NCBI GenBank assembly: GCA_021372575.1
Contig: JAJFUE010000116.1
Location: 1 to 38,410, forward strand
Direction: 5' to 3'
DNA length: 38,410 nt
DNA from: a bacterium
Lineage (GTDB): Bacteria > Sumerlaeota > Sumerlaeia > MVZB01
Part shown: positions 4,892-35,236 of the stretch, piece by piece
Numbering within the stretch: the stretch's first letter is position 1
Layout of the letters: each line of letters opens with the position of its first letter
Program-made: the position numbers and the translations under genes
Notes under the pieces: generated by a model
Told to the model about the DNA's origin: nothing
Seen by the model: the letters and a program-made list of their open reading frames with translations, nothing else
Database searches by the model: none

Positions 4892-6343
4892 TTATTCGCG
4901 CGCCTTCAGAATCAAACTGGTCTTGAGTTCGTGGAAGTTGCTTTCAAGGCCGACGGGATACAAATGCGGGTTGACGAACCGCTTGATGCCGGGGTGCAGC
5001 ATCGCAAGCTGCTGCTGCGCCCTTTCACGAATCGCCCTGATCTCCGGCGATGGATAGACCGGCTTGCCGCCGCGCAAAAGCGGCACGAGCAATTCTTCGG
5101 ATGGCGTTCCGGCCGCGATCCTCTTGCGGCGCGTGATGTCCATCGGATCGACGATCACGCAGTCGCCTTCGGGCGGGCGTTGCGCGTCGTAGATCATGTC
5201 CGCGATGAACAGCGAGTCCCTGAACCGGCGCACGCGCTGGATGCCGGGGGTCGTGATCTTCGCGAGCTGTTCGGACAGCTTGATCCGGTATTGCCACGGC
5301 TCGCCGGGCTTGCGGATGGCGGTGAGCTTGTAAATGCCGCCAAGGGCCGGCTCGTCGTAAGCCGTGGCGAGGCGCGTGCCGACGCCCCAGACGTTGATCC
5401 GCGCCCCTTGCTGCTTGAGGCTCGCGATGATGTTTTCGTCGAGCTCGTTGCTGGCGACGATCGAGGTATCCGTGAACCCGGCCTCGTCGAGCATGCGGCG
5501 GGCCTCGATGCTGAGGTATGCGAGGTCGCCGGAGTCGAGCCGGATGCCGGCCAGCTTGTGGCCGTTGTCGCGCAGACGGCGGCCGGCCTCGATTGCGTTG
5601 CGCACGCCCTCGATCGTGTCGTAGGTATCGACGAGAAAGACGCAGTTGTTCGGCATCGCGTCGGCGTAGGCCTGGAACGCCTCGATCTCGCTGTCGAAGA
5701 GCATGACCCAACTGTGCGCATGCGTGCCCATCGTCGGGATGCCGTAGATCTTGCCGGCGAGGACGTTGGACGTGCCGATGCAGCCGCCGACGTAAGCGGC
5801 GCGGCTCGCCGAGATCCCGCCGTCGATCCCCTGCGCGCGGCGAAGTCCGAATTCGATCACGGGGTCGCCCTGCGCGGCCTGGCAAATGCGCGCGGCCTTC
5901 GTCGCGATCAGCGTCTGGAAGTTGATGATCGTGAGGAGCGCCGTCTCGAGCAGCTGGCACTGGACGATCGGCCCCTGCGTGATGAGGAGCGGCTCCTGCG
6001 GGAACACGACCGTGCCCTCCGGGACGGCGTCGATGTCGAGCGTGAGACGGAGGGTTTTCAAATAGTCGAGAAACGCGGGCTCGAAAAGTAGCTTGCCGTC
6101 GTTGCCCTTGATGCCGCGCAGGTATTCGAGGTCGTCATCGCTGAACCGGAACCGCTCGAGGAACTCGATGGCCTGCTCGAGCCCGCACGCAATCGTGTAG
6201 CCGTTCTCGAACGGATTGCGCCGGAAGAAAAGAACGAACGCCGCCTCGCGATCCGCAACGCCGGCCTTCCAATACCCATACGCCATCGTGATCTCATAGA
6301 GATCGGTGAGCAGAGCGAGCGAGGGGGATTCCTGCCGGTCCAT
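4892..6343 (-). CDS. pncB: Nicotinate phosphoribosyltransferase
   Basis: The enzyme joins nicotinate to phosphoribosyl pyrophosphate, using ATP, to make nicotinate mononucleotide, the entry step of the Preiss-Handler route to NAD. The 483-residue product begins with the family hallmark [18 protein letters not shown] and has [18 protein letters not shown], the phosphorylatable histidine region [10 protein letters not shown] and the [10 protein letters not shown] phosphoribosyl-binding segment, in the usual order and at full length. A GTG at 6361 would add six residues; the ATG at 6343 fits the family better, although no strong Shine-Dalgarno sequence is seen. It is the last gene of a minus-strand NAD cassette (pncA, Nudix, ADP-ribosylglycohydrolase, pncB), separated from the preceding gene by an inverted repeat pair and followed by a hairpin terminator. 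Confidence 0.95.
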
Positions 6344-6376
6344 ACCCACATTTTCGCACACCGCCCGACCGGTGAC

Positions 6377-6494
6377 GGAATTCTTGTTCGGAGTTCAAAC
6401 TTCAGTTTGCATCTACGATCGTAACGTCACAGCACCGCGCACTTAAACTAAAATCCCGGAGCAAACTAAAGTTTGAACTCCTAACAGGAATTCC
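6377..6494. repeat. Inverted REP-like pair (GGAG-foot family), copy A
   Basis: Two arms of 34 bp (6377-6410 and 6461-6494) are inverted copies matching at about 31 positions. Each arm contains GGAGTT followed by a small palindrome: CAAACTTCAGTTTG on the left, and CAAACTTTAGTTTG when the right arm is read in reverse. GGAG in front of a hairpin is the layout of REP sequences recognised by RAYT transposases. It sits between pncB and the ADP-ribosylglycohydrolase gene. A second pair of the same family is at 8003-8090. Confidence 0.8.
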
Positions 6495-6544
6495 GACCTC
6501 ATTACGGAGGCTGCCGGCAGAACTCGAAGGCGCGGATCATATAC

Positions 6545-7438
6545 TCATTCAAAAAATCTTTCCCTCAATCGCAACCACTCGATCGGGATCGAGTCCGCGC
6601 CGGCGGAAAGGGCGACGATGCCGCCGACAATCGCACAGTTGGTATCGACGTCGCCGCCGCAACGGGCGGTTTCGATGATCGCGTAGGGATAGTCGCCGAG
6701 GTGCCGCGCCGCCATCCAGATCGCCAATGGCACCGTGTCCTGCGCGAGAATATTGCTGCCGTTGCCCAGCTTCTCGGCGGCCTCGATCGCCTCGTGATCC
6801 AGCGGCAAATTTGAAGCATCGATCAATCCATCGCGCGTTTCGCTTTTGGGCGTATGCTGAATCACATGCTCGATCATCCCGCGCGGATTCTGATTGCTGT
6901 TTTGATTCCAATGCCACGCCCACGCCGCCGCCAGCGCGACCGCGATCGTGCCCGCCTGGGCTTCAGGATGAGCATGCGTCACCTCGGCCGAAAGCCTCGC
7001 CTGCTCGATTAATGTGTCGATGTCATCGGCAAAATACGCGCCCAGCGGCGCGACGCGCATCGCGCCGCCGTTGCCCATCGAGCCGCCGCCGCCAAAAGAT
7101 GCGCGCGAGAGCGGCCGCCAATTCTCACCGCACGCGACGGCGCCCAACAGCCTCGCGGTCCCCGCGCCATACCCGCGCCGCGGATTGTTTATGTAACTCA
7201 AGGCGAACGCCTCGGCCAATTCGTCCTGATCGATGCGGCCGTGCTTGCTCAACACGCGCACGATATTGATGGCCATGACGGTGTCATCCGTAAACGGCCA
7301 CCGCACGCCATCCATCTGCGTGGGACCATACAATTCAACCGCCGTCCCGTACGAATCGCCGACGGACAATCCATCAAGCGAAAGACGCGCCCGCGCTATG
7401 CGTTCCTCATGATCCGGCGGCAGATTGGTTGTTTTCAT
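6545..7438 (-). CDS. ADP-ribosylglycohydrolase family protein (DraG/ARH type)
   Basis: Members of this family use two divalent metal ions to release ADP-ribose from modified proteins or small molecules. The 297-residue protein is a typical single-domain, all-helical member. The metal-binding motif TDDT is at residues 50-53, NGGAMRVAPLG lies mid-protein, THAHPEA follows, and the C-terminal metal motif GGDVDTN is at about 261-267 (GGDTDTN is commoner). No signal peptide is present. It starts 19 bp after the Nudix gene stop, so the two are probably co-transcribed. The gene order suggests that the ADP-ribose released here is degraded by the Nudix enzyme. The exact substrate (protein, DNA or metabolite) cannot be told from sequence. 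Confidence 0.88.
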   Translation of the reverse strand: MKTTNLPPDHEERIARARLSLDGLSVGDSYGTAVELYGPTQMDGVRWPFTDDTVMAINIVRVLSKHGRIDQDELAEAFALSYINNPRRGYGAGTARLLGAVACGENWRPLSRASFGGGGSMGNGGAMRVAPLGAYFADDIDTLIEQARLSAEVTHAHPEAQAGTIAVALAAAWAWHWNQNSNQNPRGMIEHVIQHTPKSETRDGLIDASNLPLDHEAIEAAEKLGNGSNILAQDTVPLAIWMAARHLGDYPYAIIETARCGGDVDTNCAIVGGIVALSAGADSIPIEWLRLRERFFE

Positions 7439-7457
7439 CGCGTCACTCTTAGGCCGG

Positions 7458-7979
7458 TTATTGCTGAGACTTTAAGAAATACAGCCCGATATACACGCGC
7501 GGGTCGATGCAGAGGCCGGATTCGGATTTCTTTCTGAGCCATGCGTCGGCTTCGGCGATGGGCACTTCGTGGACGGTGATCTTTTCGTTGCCGACTCCGC
7601 CGCCGCCGTTCTTCTTTTCGAGCCCCGTCGCCATGATGAAATTGACGACCTCGTTCGTGAGGCCGGTCGATGACGGGCCCTCGATCACTTTTCTGAATTC
7701 GCGGGCGGCGTAGCCGGTCTCCTCGAGCAGCTCGCGCTCGGCGGCCTTTAAAATGGATTCGTTGTGATCGTCCTCGTCGCCGACGAGGCCCGAGGGCAGC
7801 TCAATGACCTGCGCGTGCATCGACGCGCGGTATTGCTCGACAAGCACGATTTTCTCGTCGTTCGTTTTGGCCATCACGCCGACGACGTTGGTGCCGACCC
7901 TGCGCTCGACGTATTCCCAACTGTTGTCGTCGATGAGGCGGAGGTATTTGCCTTCGGCGAGGACGCGTTTGCCGCTCAT
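7458..7979 (-). CDS. Nudix hydrolase, ADP-ribose pyrophosphatase type
   Basis: Such enzymes split ADP-ribose into AMP and ribose 5-phosphate. The Nudix box is at residues ~67-90: glycine, then E74, then REL-LEE-TGY (R82, E83, E86, E87, G89). The spacing from the glycine to E74 is one residue longer than the standard five. VEQYRASMHAQVIELPSG before the box is typical of the NudF/ADP-ribose branch. The open frame reaches further upstream to 8024, but those extra residues are encoded by the inverted repeat. The ATG at 7979 has CGGAG 9 nt upstream and is the better start (173 residues). There is no winged-helix domain, so this is not an NrtR regulator. It is followed after 19 bp by the ADP-ribosylglycohydrolase gene. 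Confidence 0.9.
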   Translation of the reverse strand: MSGKRVLAEGKYLRLIDDNSWEYVERRVGTNVVGVMAKTNDEKIVLVEQYRASMHAQVIELPSGLVGDEDDHNESILKAAERELLEETGYAAREFRKVIEGPSSTGLTNEVVNFIMATGLEKKNGGGGVGNEKITVHEVPIAEADAWLRKKSESGLCIDPRVYIGLYFLKSQQ

Positions 7980-8002
7980 TGAAATCATCTCCGATTGTTG
8001 AC

Positions 8003-8090
8003 GAAATTCTTGTTCGGAGTTCAAGCTTCAGCTTGCTCTGGGAAATCTTAATTAAGAGCAAACTAAAGTTTGAACTCCGAACTGGAATTC
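8003..8090. repeat. Inverted REP-like pair (GGAG-foot family), copy B
   Basis: The left arm (8003-8038) and right arm (8055-8090) are inverted copies. The left-arm hairpin is CAAGCTTCAGCTTG, whereas copy A has CAAACTTCAGTTTG: both sides of the stem changed together, keeping the pairing. The arms are separated by about 16 bp here against 50 bp in copy A. It lies between nicotinamidase and the Nudix gene. Confidence 0.8.
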
Positions 8091-8097
8091 CATCTTC

Positions 8098-8736
8098 TTA
8101 TTCACGAAGTTTCCAGTTTTCGAAATCCGACGCCGTCACCACTTCGACACCGGCTTGTTTCAGTTCTTCGATCGCGCGCGCTTCGTCGCCGGGGTCGAGG
8201 TTCACCGGCCGGCACGCGTCGTGGATGAGGTGCATTTTAAATCCCATCCGGACGGCATCGAGCGCGCTGAACTTGACGCAATAATCGGTCGTCAGGCCGC
8301 AAATGTAAAGGTCGCGCGCGCCCTGGACCTTGAGATACTCGCCGAGGCCGGTCGATTTCCGGCGGCCGTTGTCGAACAGCGCGCTGTAGCTATCGATGGC
8401 GGGATCGGTGCCCTTGCGGAAAATGTTGTGGATGCCGGCGCGGTTGAGGTCGTGGTGGAGCTCGGCGCCGCGCGTGCCCTGGACGCAGTGGTCGGGCCAC
8501 AGGATTTGCGGCAGGCCGCCCAAGTCGATCACGTCGCCCGGCTTTTTGCCCGGGTGGCTCGAGGCAAAGCTGCCGTGGCTGGGCGGATGCCAGTCCTGCG
8601 TGGCGATCACCATTTCGAAGAGCGGCATCAGGCGGTTGGCAATCGGGACAAGCAGGTCGCCTTCGGGGACAGCCAACGCCCCGCCCGGCATGAAATCGTA
8701 TTGCAGATCGGTGATGATGAAGGCGTTCGCGACCAT
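8098..8736 (-). CDS. pncA: Nicotinamidase
   Basis: PncA hydrolyses nicotinamide to nicotinate and ammonia, feeding PncB. The 212-residue isochorismatase-fold protein has the complete catalytic triad D10 (ITDLQYDF), K108 (FRKGTDP) and C153 (TTDYCVKFSA). The metal-binding residues are D48, H50 and H54 (TQDWHPPSH) and H83 (PDHC). The start ATG at 8736 follows a TAAAAT box that ends only 5 bp upstream. It is the first gene of the NAD cassette and lies 293 bp after the mreB stop. Confidence 0.95.
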   Translation of the reverse strand: MVANAFIITDLQYDFMPGGALAVPEGDLLVPIANRLMPLFEMVIATQDWHPPSHGSFASSHPGKKPGDVIDLGGLPQILWPDHCVQGTRGAELHHDLNRAGIHNIFRKGTDPAIDSYSALFDNGRRKSTGLGEYLKVQGARDLYICGLTTDYCVKFSALDAVRMGFKMHLIHDACRPVNLDPGDEARAIEELKQAGVEVVTASDFENWKLRE

Positions 8737-15125: not shown

Positions 15126-15173
15126 GAATAAACCTTATGATTTAGCGTAGTGCGTTCATTATGCATGATCCCG

Positions 15174-15267
15174 GAGCGCCAAAGGCGCTCATCATATCAG
15201 CCTGGGGCGGAGCGAAGCGCAGCCCCAGGACGAGCCCATTTTATCGCAGAGCGCCACAGGCGCGACT
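15174..15267. repeat. REP-like palindromes on the 3' side of the first transposase
   Basis: GAGCGCC-AAA-GGCGCTC (15174-15190), CCTGGGGC...GCCCCAGG (15201-15229) and GAGCGCCACAGGCGCGAC (15250-15267) stand in series between rsmA and the transposase gene. The same hairpins stand on the other side of the transposase. Confidence 0.8.
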
Positions 15268-15298
15268 CATCTGAATCCCGGGTCGCAGCCCCAGACGG

Positions 15299-15751
15299 TC
15301 AATCCCACACATACGCCTCGTTATATTTAACATTATATTTTTCCAAAAACATCCTGAACTCTTCCTGAAATGTTCTTTTTCGATGATGTTCTTCCTGACC
15401 ATCAATATACGTGCGCAATGCGTCCAGATCGCGCGGGCTAATCGAAAAACATCCATACCCGCGTTGCCAAGAAAAATTCCTGAGCGACACGTACTGTTCC
15501 TTTGCCCATTTTGAGGATGACGTTTTTAACCTTTCAACCAATTGTGCAATCGTGATCGTGCGGGACAAACGAATCGCGATATGAACGTGATCCATCACTC
15601 CCCCGACCCGGTAACATTCACAATTTAGATCTCGCGCAATCGTGGCGAGATACGCATGCATCGATGAACGCGAATCCTGGTCCAGAAACGGATGCCGATT
15701 TTTCGTGCTGAAAATCACATGAACGATCACGAGGCTGAGGGACTCCGGCAT
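15299..15751 (-). CDS. REP-associated tyrosine transposase (RAYT, Y1_Tnp/IS200-like)
   Basis: This 150-residue HUH-superfamily nuclease is predicted to cut and join single-stranded DNA at REP hairpins. The start MPESLSLVIVHVIFSTKNRH is characteristic, the HUH motif is HVH at residues 55-57 (GVMDHVHIAI), and the candidate catalytic tyrosine is Y115 in RTYIDGQEEHHRKRTF. The frame is open further upstream to 15991, but that part translates the REP repeats. The ATG at 15751 has AAGGAA at good spacing and gives the usual RAYT length. REP-like palindromes of one family flank it on both sides and recur beyond rsmA. The gene looks intact. It lies tail-side of the JAB-DinG helicase gene on the same strand. 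Confidence 0.92.
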   Translation of the reverse strand: MPESLSLVIVHVIFSTKNRHPFLDQDSRSSMHAYLATIARDLNCECYRVGGVMDHVHIAIRLSRTITIAQLVERLKTSSSKWAKEQYVSLRNFSWQRGYGCFSISPRDLDALRTYIDGQEEHHRKRTFQEEFRMFLEKYNVKYNEAYVWD

Positions 15752-15766
15752 GGGGGTTTCCTTTCC

Positions 15767-15853
15767 GGGGGGCTGCGCCCCCGAATTTAAATGAACCGCG
15801 CCTTTGGCGCTCTCATATCTTTTGCGCCATCTCACCTGGGGCTGCGCCCCAGG
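15767..15853. repeat. REP-like palindromes on the 5' side of the first transposase
   Basis: GGGGGCTGCGCCCCC (15768-15782), GCGCCTTTGGCGC (15798-15810) and CCTGGGGCTGCGCCCCAGG (15835-15853) follow one another. They mirror the units at 15174-15267, so the transposase is enclosed by inverted REP sets, giving an element of about 680 bp. Confidence 0.8.
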
Positions 15854-15962
15854 CTGGGATGACATCGCGCCTTTGTCGCGATTGGAAAAAAACGAAGTCG
15901 AATCCATCATACATCGCCACAATGGTTTATAATTCGCCAAAAAAAGAAATAAATAACGGGCT

Positions 15963-34574: not shown

Positions 34575-34659
34575 CCCAGTCCCGCAGGGACGATCGCTTT
34601 CAGCCCGCCATGACAATGGCGGGTAACGTCGCGATTTGCATCCCGAGTCCCGGAGGGAC
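34575..34659. repeat. REP palindromes on the 3' side of the second transposase
   Basis: Three hairpins in series: GTCCC-GCA-GGGAC (34579-34591), CCCGCCAT-GACA-ATGGCGGG (34604-34623) and GTCCC-GGA-GGGAC (34647-34659). The block 34575-34623 is a near-perfect inverted copy of 35187-35236. Confidence 0.9.
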
Positions 34660-34671
34660 GGCTGATTCTGT

Positions 34672-35127
34672 TTACCCGAAAACGTAATCCTCCTGATATT
34701 CGATCATGTGCCTCTTCAAGAACGCCTTATATTCTTCCTCGAACGTCCTCTTGCGATGATGCTCAATCTGATTACGAATGTATTTTGTCGTTGCCTCGAT
34801 CTGTGAAAACCCGTTCGTGAAAACTCCGTATCCTTCCTGCCAGGCGAATTTATATCGTGACCTAAATTCCTCGTTCACCCATTTTGACGATCCCGCTTTA
34901 ATCAATTGAATCCCCTTCGCGGGCGCCATCGAAGGCGGAATCATCATGAAAATGTGGCAATGATTTTCGGTCCCTCCCGCTATCAGCGATTTCATCCCGT
35001 TTTCTCTGGCGATCCCGCCCATGTAGTCCCACAGGCGCCCCATCCAGTCCGGCAGAATCAGTTTCGTTCGGTTTCGAGTCGAGAAAACGAAATGATACAG
35101 ACAACTGCCGTAGGTGTGACCGCCCAT
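34672..35127 (-). CDS. REP-associated tyrosine transposase (RAYT), second type
   Basis: This 151-residue Y1_Tnp protein has the start GSCLYHFVFSTRNRTKL, an HUH motif with cysteine in the middle (H56-C57-H58 in ENHCHIFMMIP), GSSKWVNEEF, and the candidate catalytic tyrosine Y116 in KYIRNQIEHHRKRTFEEEY. It differs strongly from the transposase at 15.3 kb and has its own REP family (GTCCC/GGGAC and CCCGCCAT/ATGGCGGG hairpins) arranged as mirror images on both sides. The element of about 660 bp sits between nuoF and nuoG, in the same orientation as the nuo genes. It looks intact and may be read from the nuo transcript. Confidence 0.92.
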   Translation of the reverse strand: MGGHTYGSCLYHFVFSTRNRTKLILPDWMGRLWDYMGGIARENGMKSLIAGGTENHCHIFMMIPPSMAPAKGIQLIKAGSSKWVNEEFRSRYKFAWQEGYGVFTNGFSQIEATTKYIRNQIEHHRKRTFEEEYKAFLKRHMIEYQEDYVFG

Positions 35128-35148
35128 TGCACTGGTCCTTTCTCATCC

Positions 35149-35236
35149 GTCCCTGCCGGGACTCGGTTTCCTCTCCGTCATCGTTTCCCGCCATTGTCAT
35201 GGCGGGCTGAAAGCGCCCGTCCCTACCGGGACTGGG
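35149..35236. repeat. REP palindromes on the 5' side of the second transposase
   Basis: GTCCCTGCCGGGAC (35149-35162), CCCGCCAT-TGTC-ATGGCGGG (35187-35206) and GTCCCTACCGGGAC (35219-35232) mirror the three hairpins on the other side in order and orientation. Confidence 0.9.

Follow-up and report, generated by a model that had tools for sequence, protein, structure and literature searches.

REP doublets in a cluster of NAD-metabolism genes

The window analysed here (38,410 nucleotides; contig C111 of a 4.63-Mb draft assembly in 214 contigs) contains, all on the minus strand, pncB for nicotinate phosphoribosyltransferase (4892-6361, with a probable ATG start near 6343), an ADP-ribosylglycohydrolase gene (ARH, PF03747; 6545-7438), a Nudix hydrolase gene (PF00293; 7458-7979, ATG start at 7979) and a gene for an isochorismatase-family protein (8098-8736), which is probably the nicotinamidase gene pncA given the neighbouring pncB and the conserved adjacency of the two. 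The motif GGAGTTCAARCTTYAGYTTG occurs in this window exactly four times, at 6390(+), 6462(-), 8016(+) and 8059(-), where shuffled sequences lead to expect none. These copies pair up as two inverted doublets whose GGAG feet face outward, one at 6376-6495 between ARH and pncB and the other at 8002-8093, filling the spacer between pncA and the Nudix gene. As the original prediction had it, they enclose the Nudix and ARH genes, with pncA and pncB outside.

The first doublet is made of a core at 6390-6410 (+), in which the GGAG foot and TT are followed by the stem-loop CAAAC-TTCA-GTTTG, and of a core at 6461-6481 (-) reading CAAAC-TTTA-GTTTG; a 5' extension conserved among the REPs of this genome (GRNGTYGGAATTYCNGTYMG) occupies 6370-6389 (+). 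In the second doublet, the conserved extension starts directly 3' of the pncA stop codon, and the cores lie at 8016-8036 (+; CAAGC-TTCA-GCTTG) and 8058-8078 (-; CAAAC-TTTA-GTTTG). At 8016 the stem has thus changed from CAAAC/GTTTG to CAAGC/GCTTG on both sides, an A-T pair being replaced by a G-C pair. The compensated change had been described for a stem of six base pairs; the double substitution stands, but the folded stem has five, since with a sixth the loop would shrink to 2 nt. Single REP hairpins (5 bp and a TTYA loop) are weak, at -2.2 to -3.3 kcal/mol. The arms of the doublets are 91% and 83% complementary, and each doublet as single-stranded DNA folds into a long hairpin well beyond shuffled sequences (z of -6.9 to -9.9). 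Each doublet of the window hence folds into one hairpin as a REPIN does, while such doublets are a minority of the clusters genome-wide.

A dispersed REP family with a covarying stem

Searching the genome for further copies with at most three mismatches retrieved 112 occurrences of the REP pattern, with none for the pattern read backwards, which strongly supports the identity of these repeats as high-copy, dispersed REPs. Their architecture is a GGAG foot, TT, a 5-bp stem and a TTYA loop, and the aligned copies have about 45 nt in common, namely GRNGTYGGAATTYCNGTYMG followed by GGAGTTCAARCTTYAGYTTGCYC. Since the extension reads GGAGTTCCTGTTC in several copies, it looks as if the foot had been duplicated in degenerate form; at one Acidobacteria locus, several extension-like 13-mers stand in tandem. 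GGAG does precede each stem, but it is not the known REP foot that it had been taken for: the published foot is GT(A/G)G, one base away, so that in this one respect the repeats fall outside a strict definition of REPs, and no description of a GGAG foot was found in the published REP literature searched. GTAG is the foot of a similar REP found in Sumerlaeota DG2.163, in KSB1 and elsewhere.

The 101 copies that could be placed fall into 77 clusters, among them 54 single REPs, nine feet-out pairs, seven feet-in pairs with a near-constant offset of 66-69 nt, and some direct pairs. At the threshold used, singlets hence predominate, unlike in the doublet-dominated REPIN families, and this counts against a REPIN/RAYT reading, as do the deviating foot and the shortness of the stem. 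The REPs are depleted in genes without being absent from them, 40% lying inside long open reading frames as against 86% of random positions, in a set of frames so crude that the true genic fraction is uncertain; both doublets of the window are intergenic.

The stem is fully paired in 94 of 97 genome copies, mainly as CAAAC/GTTTG, CAAGC/GCTTG and CAAAA/TTTTG, so that the palindrome is kept by compensation. A non-circular sample was obtained by picking neighbours of known REPs through the foot G[GT]AGTTC alone and then filtering for a TTYA loop, the stem being ignored. Among the 48 neighbours with such a loop, 36 are fully paired, and their stems include CACGC/GCGTG, CAACC/GGTTG, CAGCC/GGCTG, CAAAA/TTTTG and CCGCC/GGCGG. 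In a set of 28 distinct cores, made up of 26 from this selection and two consensus forms, 87.9% of the stem cells pair, compared with 68.6% after shuffling and at most 45% after sliding, and 29 cells are changed on both sides, compared with 10.4 (sd 2.5) in shuffled sets. Substitutions in other copies are therefore not the random, non-compensating ones that would have spoken against selection on the hairpin, and such selection is strongly supported, with controls, beyond the window too.

A cognate transposase encoded in trans

According to the original prediction, the window shows no transposase of this family. This is literally true; a RAYT gene flanked by these very REPs is, however, present elsewhere in the same genome. 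It is missed by the PF01797 model, which detects 13 IS200-like genes in the genome, two of them within the window, and it was found only by way of loci from other phyla. At two of these (L162 and L217), a RAYT gene stands between inverted copies of the REP, and the encoded proteins are 63% identical. A profile built from this pair and searched against the window's own genome detected RAYT-A (C31:3013-3603, E = 1e-85) and RAYT-B (C155:39842-40438, E = 4e-80).

RAYT-A lies between inverted REPs of the window family, at 2905(-)/2971(+) and 3636(-)/3703(+) on C31, and homologous RAYTs flanked by the window REP are found in three other genomes. The arrangement of a REPtron, an HUH-Y1 gene between inverted REPs of one family, is thus seen on C31 and in these three genomes. 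The other four RAYTs are 52-59% identical to RAYT-A, and the HUH and Y motifs, as PNH(Y/D)H and NY, are kept in all five. A profile of the five matches the E. coli TnpAREP structure 4er8, the best solved relative, at 7e-9, and two tested homologues (Acidobacteria/Blastocatellia) reach 74-75 bits with NCBIfam NF047646, slightly under its cut-off of 80. The AlphaFold model of the RAYT is poor (pLDDT 45.6).

RAYT-B is flanked by a REP family of its own, GTAGTYCCGCCTTCAGGCGG, with 83 copies in the genome, none for the reversed control and none in the window; the gene and its REPs (C155:39766-40543) also constitute locus L274 1425-2202. The RAYT of G018, taken as Sumerlaeota DG2.163, is flanked by both GTAG- and GGAG-footed REPs with several stems. 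Across 61 genomes, RAYT matches above 200 bits were found only in the window's own genome and in G018, which are two of the three genomes with at least 80 REP copies; in the third, G002 (80 copies; assembly 71% complete), no RAYT was detected.

The window holds two other HUH transposases, both with repeats of their own. The IS200-like transposase at 34672-35127 (-), within 34581-35229, is bounded by an inverted CCCGCCATGACAATGGCGGG hairpin unit; its flank of about 85 nt recurs in the genome as dozens of scattered partial copies (82 matching pieces when both strands are counted), and therefore represents a separate transposase-linked repeat family. The one at 15299-15751 (-), within 15160-15890, is flanked by inverted GGGGCTGCGCCCC and GCGCC..GGCGC hairpins, and its flank has 18 matches in the genome including itself.

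Occurrence in other phyla

A scan of GTDB genomes for GTTYGKAGTTCAARCTTYAGYTTG gave, among the matches listed, records from Acidobacteria, KSB1, Pedosphaera, Verrucomicrobium, Phycisphaerae, Planctomycetes, Hydrogenedentota, Sumerlaeota and Lentisphaerae. The REP core hence recurs, among these matches, in at least about seven phyla, as named from the record titles, an adjacent RAYT being seen for only some of them. We consider the chances roughly even that a single lineage of RAYTs and REPs, in which the foot context (GTTYGKAGTTC) and the TTYA loop are fixed and the stem covaries freely, has spread or persisted across some seven phyla (Sumerlaeota, Acidobacteria, KSB1, Verrucomicrobia, Planctomycetes/Phycisphaerae, Hydrogenedentota and Lentisphaerae) while switching its foot between GTAG and GGAG. 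It would have been overlooked because searches for REPs required GT(A/G)G and because PF01797 misses or barely scores its transposase. Plasmids yielded no relative of the first doublet, plasmids and phages no relative of RAYT-A, and a collection of viral contigs only one match to the REP core.

Such repeats also occur in other arrangements. In Sumerlaeota DG2.163 (L060, L177, L186, L191), the same REP forms tandem arrays of 25-26 nt with up to five units. RAYT relatives in G005 and G011 (L252 1355-1373, L275 1393-1425) are flanked by repeats beginning TTGGAGTGCG, hence with a GGAG and not a GTAG start. A paralogous segment of about 700 bp, found at the ends of short contigs (L119, L120, L121, L075, L076, L098) and probably breaking the assembly, contains tandem REPs at 54 nt inside open frames.

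Origin of the doublets

Copy number, architecture, stem covariation and the inverted REPs of the same family around RAYT-A are direct observations, and with them it is very probable that both doublets are REPINs belonging to a single REP family, which the HUH/Y1 transposase RAYT-A, encoded in trans, has dispersed through this Sumerlaeota-class genome. By analogy with the published biochemistry of TnpAREP, RAYT-A would act on single-stranded DNA, where it would recognise the GGAG foot together with the hairpin and its TTYA loop, cleave beside the hairpin and insert or recombine doublets, mostly into intergenic spacers; the mobility of the REPs is likewise presumed from these systems. The doublets of the window would then be two independent insertions into nearby spacers of a NAD-metabolism gene cluster, and they may act secondarily, once transcribed into mRNA, as stabilising hairpins.

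That such hairpins could be the primary function, the repeats being immobile regulatory elements of the host, shared by the NAD genes, that stabilise or attenuate mRNA, is a reading to which their position between co-directional genes and their strong folding in the transcript sense (with DNA parameters) lend some appeal. It is nonetheless hard to believe in view of some 77 loci in both orientations and of the existence of a cognate RAYT; moreover, no terminator-like site was found at the doublets, and the only Rfam match, MIR5185, is far below threshold (35.3 vs 101.7 bits). The presence in the window of IS200-like transposases, at the positions given above, could in turn suggest MITEs mobilised by an enzyme of the IS200/IS605 type. 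These genes are, however, flanked by different hairpin families, and since none of the 13 PF01797 matches has a window REP within 1.5 kb, this reading is already contradicted and we give it practically no credence.

The original prediction also proposed that the pairs might have carried the two enclosed genes as a unit, that is, that the doublets are the ends of a composite mobile element which brought Nudix and ARH as cargo between pncA and pncB. Examining relatives for pncA directly next to pncB had a mixed outcome in this respect. The two genes are contiguous and devoid of REPs in G017 (with overlapping frames) and G025, in the same order as here, and in G026 in reversed order, so that the Nudix-ARH pair is either an addition in the present lineage or a loss elsewhere. 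The slightly lower GC content of the Nudix and ARH genes (0.59-0.615 vs 0.62-0.66) and the feet-out REPs enclosing the RAYT gene on C31 in the same geometry also speak for transport. Yet each spacer holds a complete doublet, and among 77 clusters chance alone should place two within 1.6 kb of each other about twice. Many relatives have a Nudix homologue (41-49% identity), and the best ARH homologues are those of G036 and G011 (46-48%), but in the relatives searched the two kinds of gene occupy separate loci, and different contigs wherever a genome has both; they are never paired with each other and never beside pncA or pncB. No second Nudix-ARH pair was found, and the ARH and pnc loci of these relatives are without REPs. 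According to a published report (PMC6006769), moreover, REPtrons do not seem to move as single units. Cargo transport, which has no positive evidence beyond geometry, is thus not supported and is in our view very unlikely; independent insertion of two REPINs explains the picture, and gene transport by repeats is no longer needed to account for the locus.

The probable dispersal of REPINs by RAYT-A links a hitherto unexplained repeat of an uncultivated lineage with one particular transposase, and a single genome is seen to contain two pairs of RAYT and REP family that each have a stem of their own. Since the foot of the present family is non-canonical and the family is suggested to be common to many phyla, it offers moreover a direct test of foot recognition by RAYTs.

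Relation to known REP/RAYT systems

The system described here is an ordinary REP/RAYT system with a non-canonical foot and a wide spread, of which no earlier description was found in the host lineage. With the REPINs and RAYTs of P. fluorescens (PMC3116915) it shares dispersed inverted doublets, depletion in genes, compensated hairpin changes and a cognate RAYT encoded in trans, from which it departs by its GGAG foot, its A+T-rich 5-bp stem and the dominance of singlets at the threshold used. As in the REPtrons of E. coli and S. maltophilia (PMC8266576, PMC2817692), inverted REPs flank the RAYT gene and the foot lies at the 5' base of the hairpin, whereas TnpAREP of these Proteobacteria is associated with canonical GTAG/GTGG feet and with longer, G+C-rich stems. 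TnpAREP subclass 2.8 has been defined by an HYH motif together with a proline-rich N terminus (Quentin et al., 2018; PMC6006769), and RAYT-A, RAYT-B and the Sumerlaeota DG2.163 RAYT all possess HYH and a proline-containing N-terminal stretch, L162 having HDH instead. The description of subclass 2.8 is based, however, on Cyanobacteria whose REPs are long and have the canonical GT(A/G)G foot, and the likeness seen here is one of motifs. Finally, the REP of H. influenzae, GTAGGGTGGGCTTYAGCCCACC (PMC2817692), differs in foot and stem sequence but has the identical CTTYAG centre.
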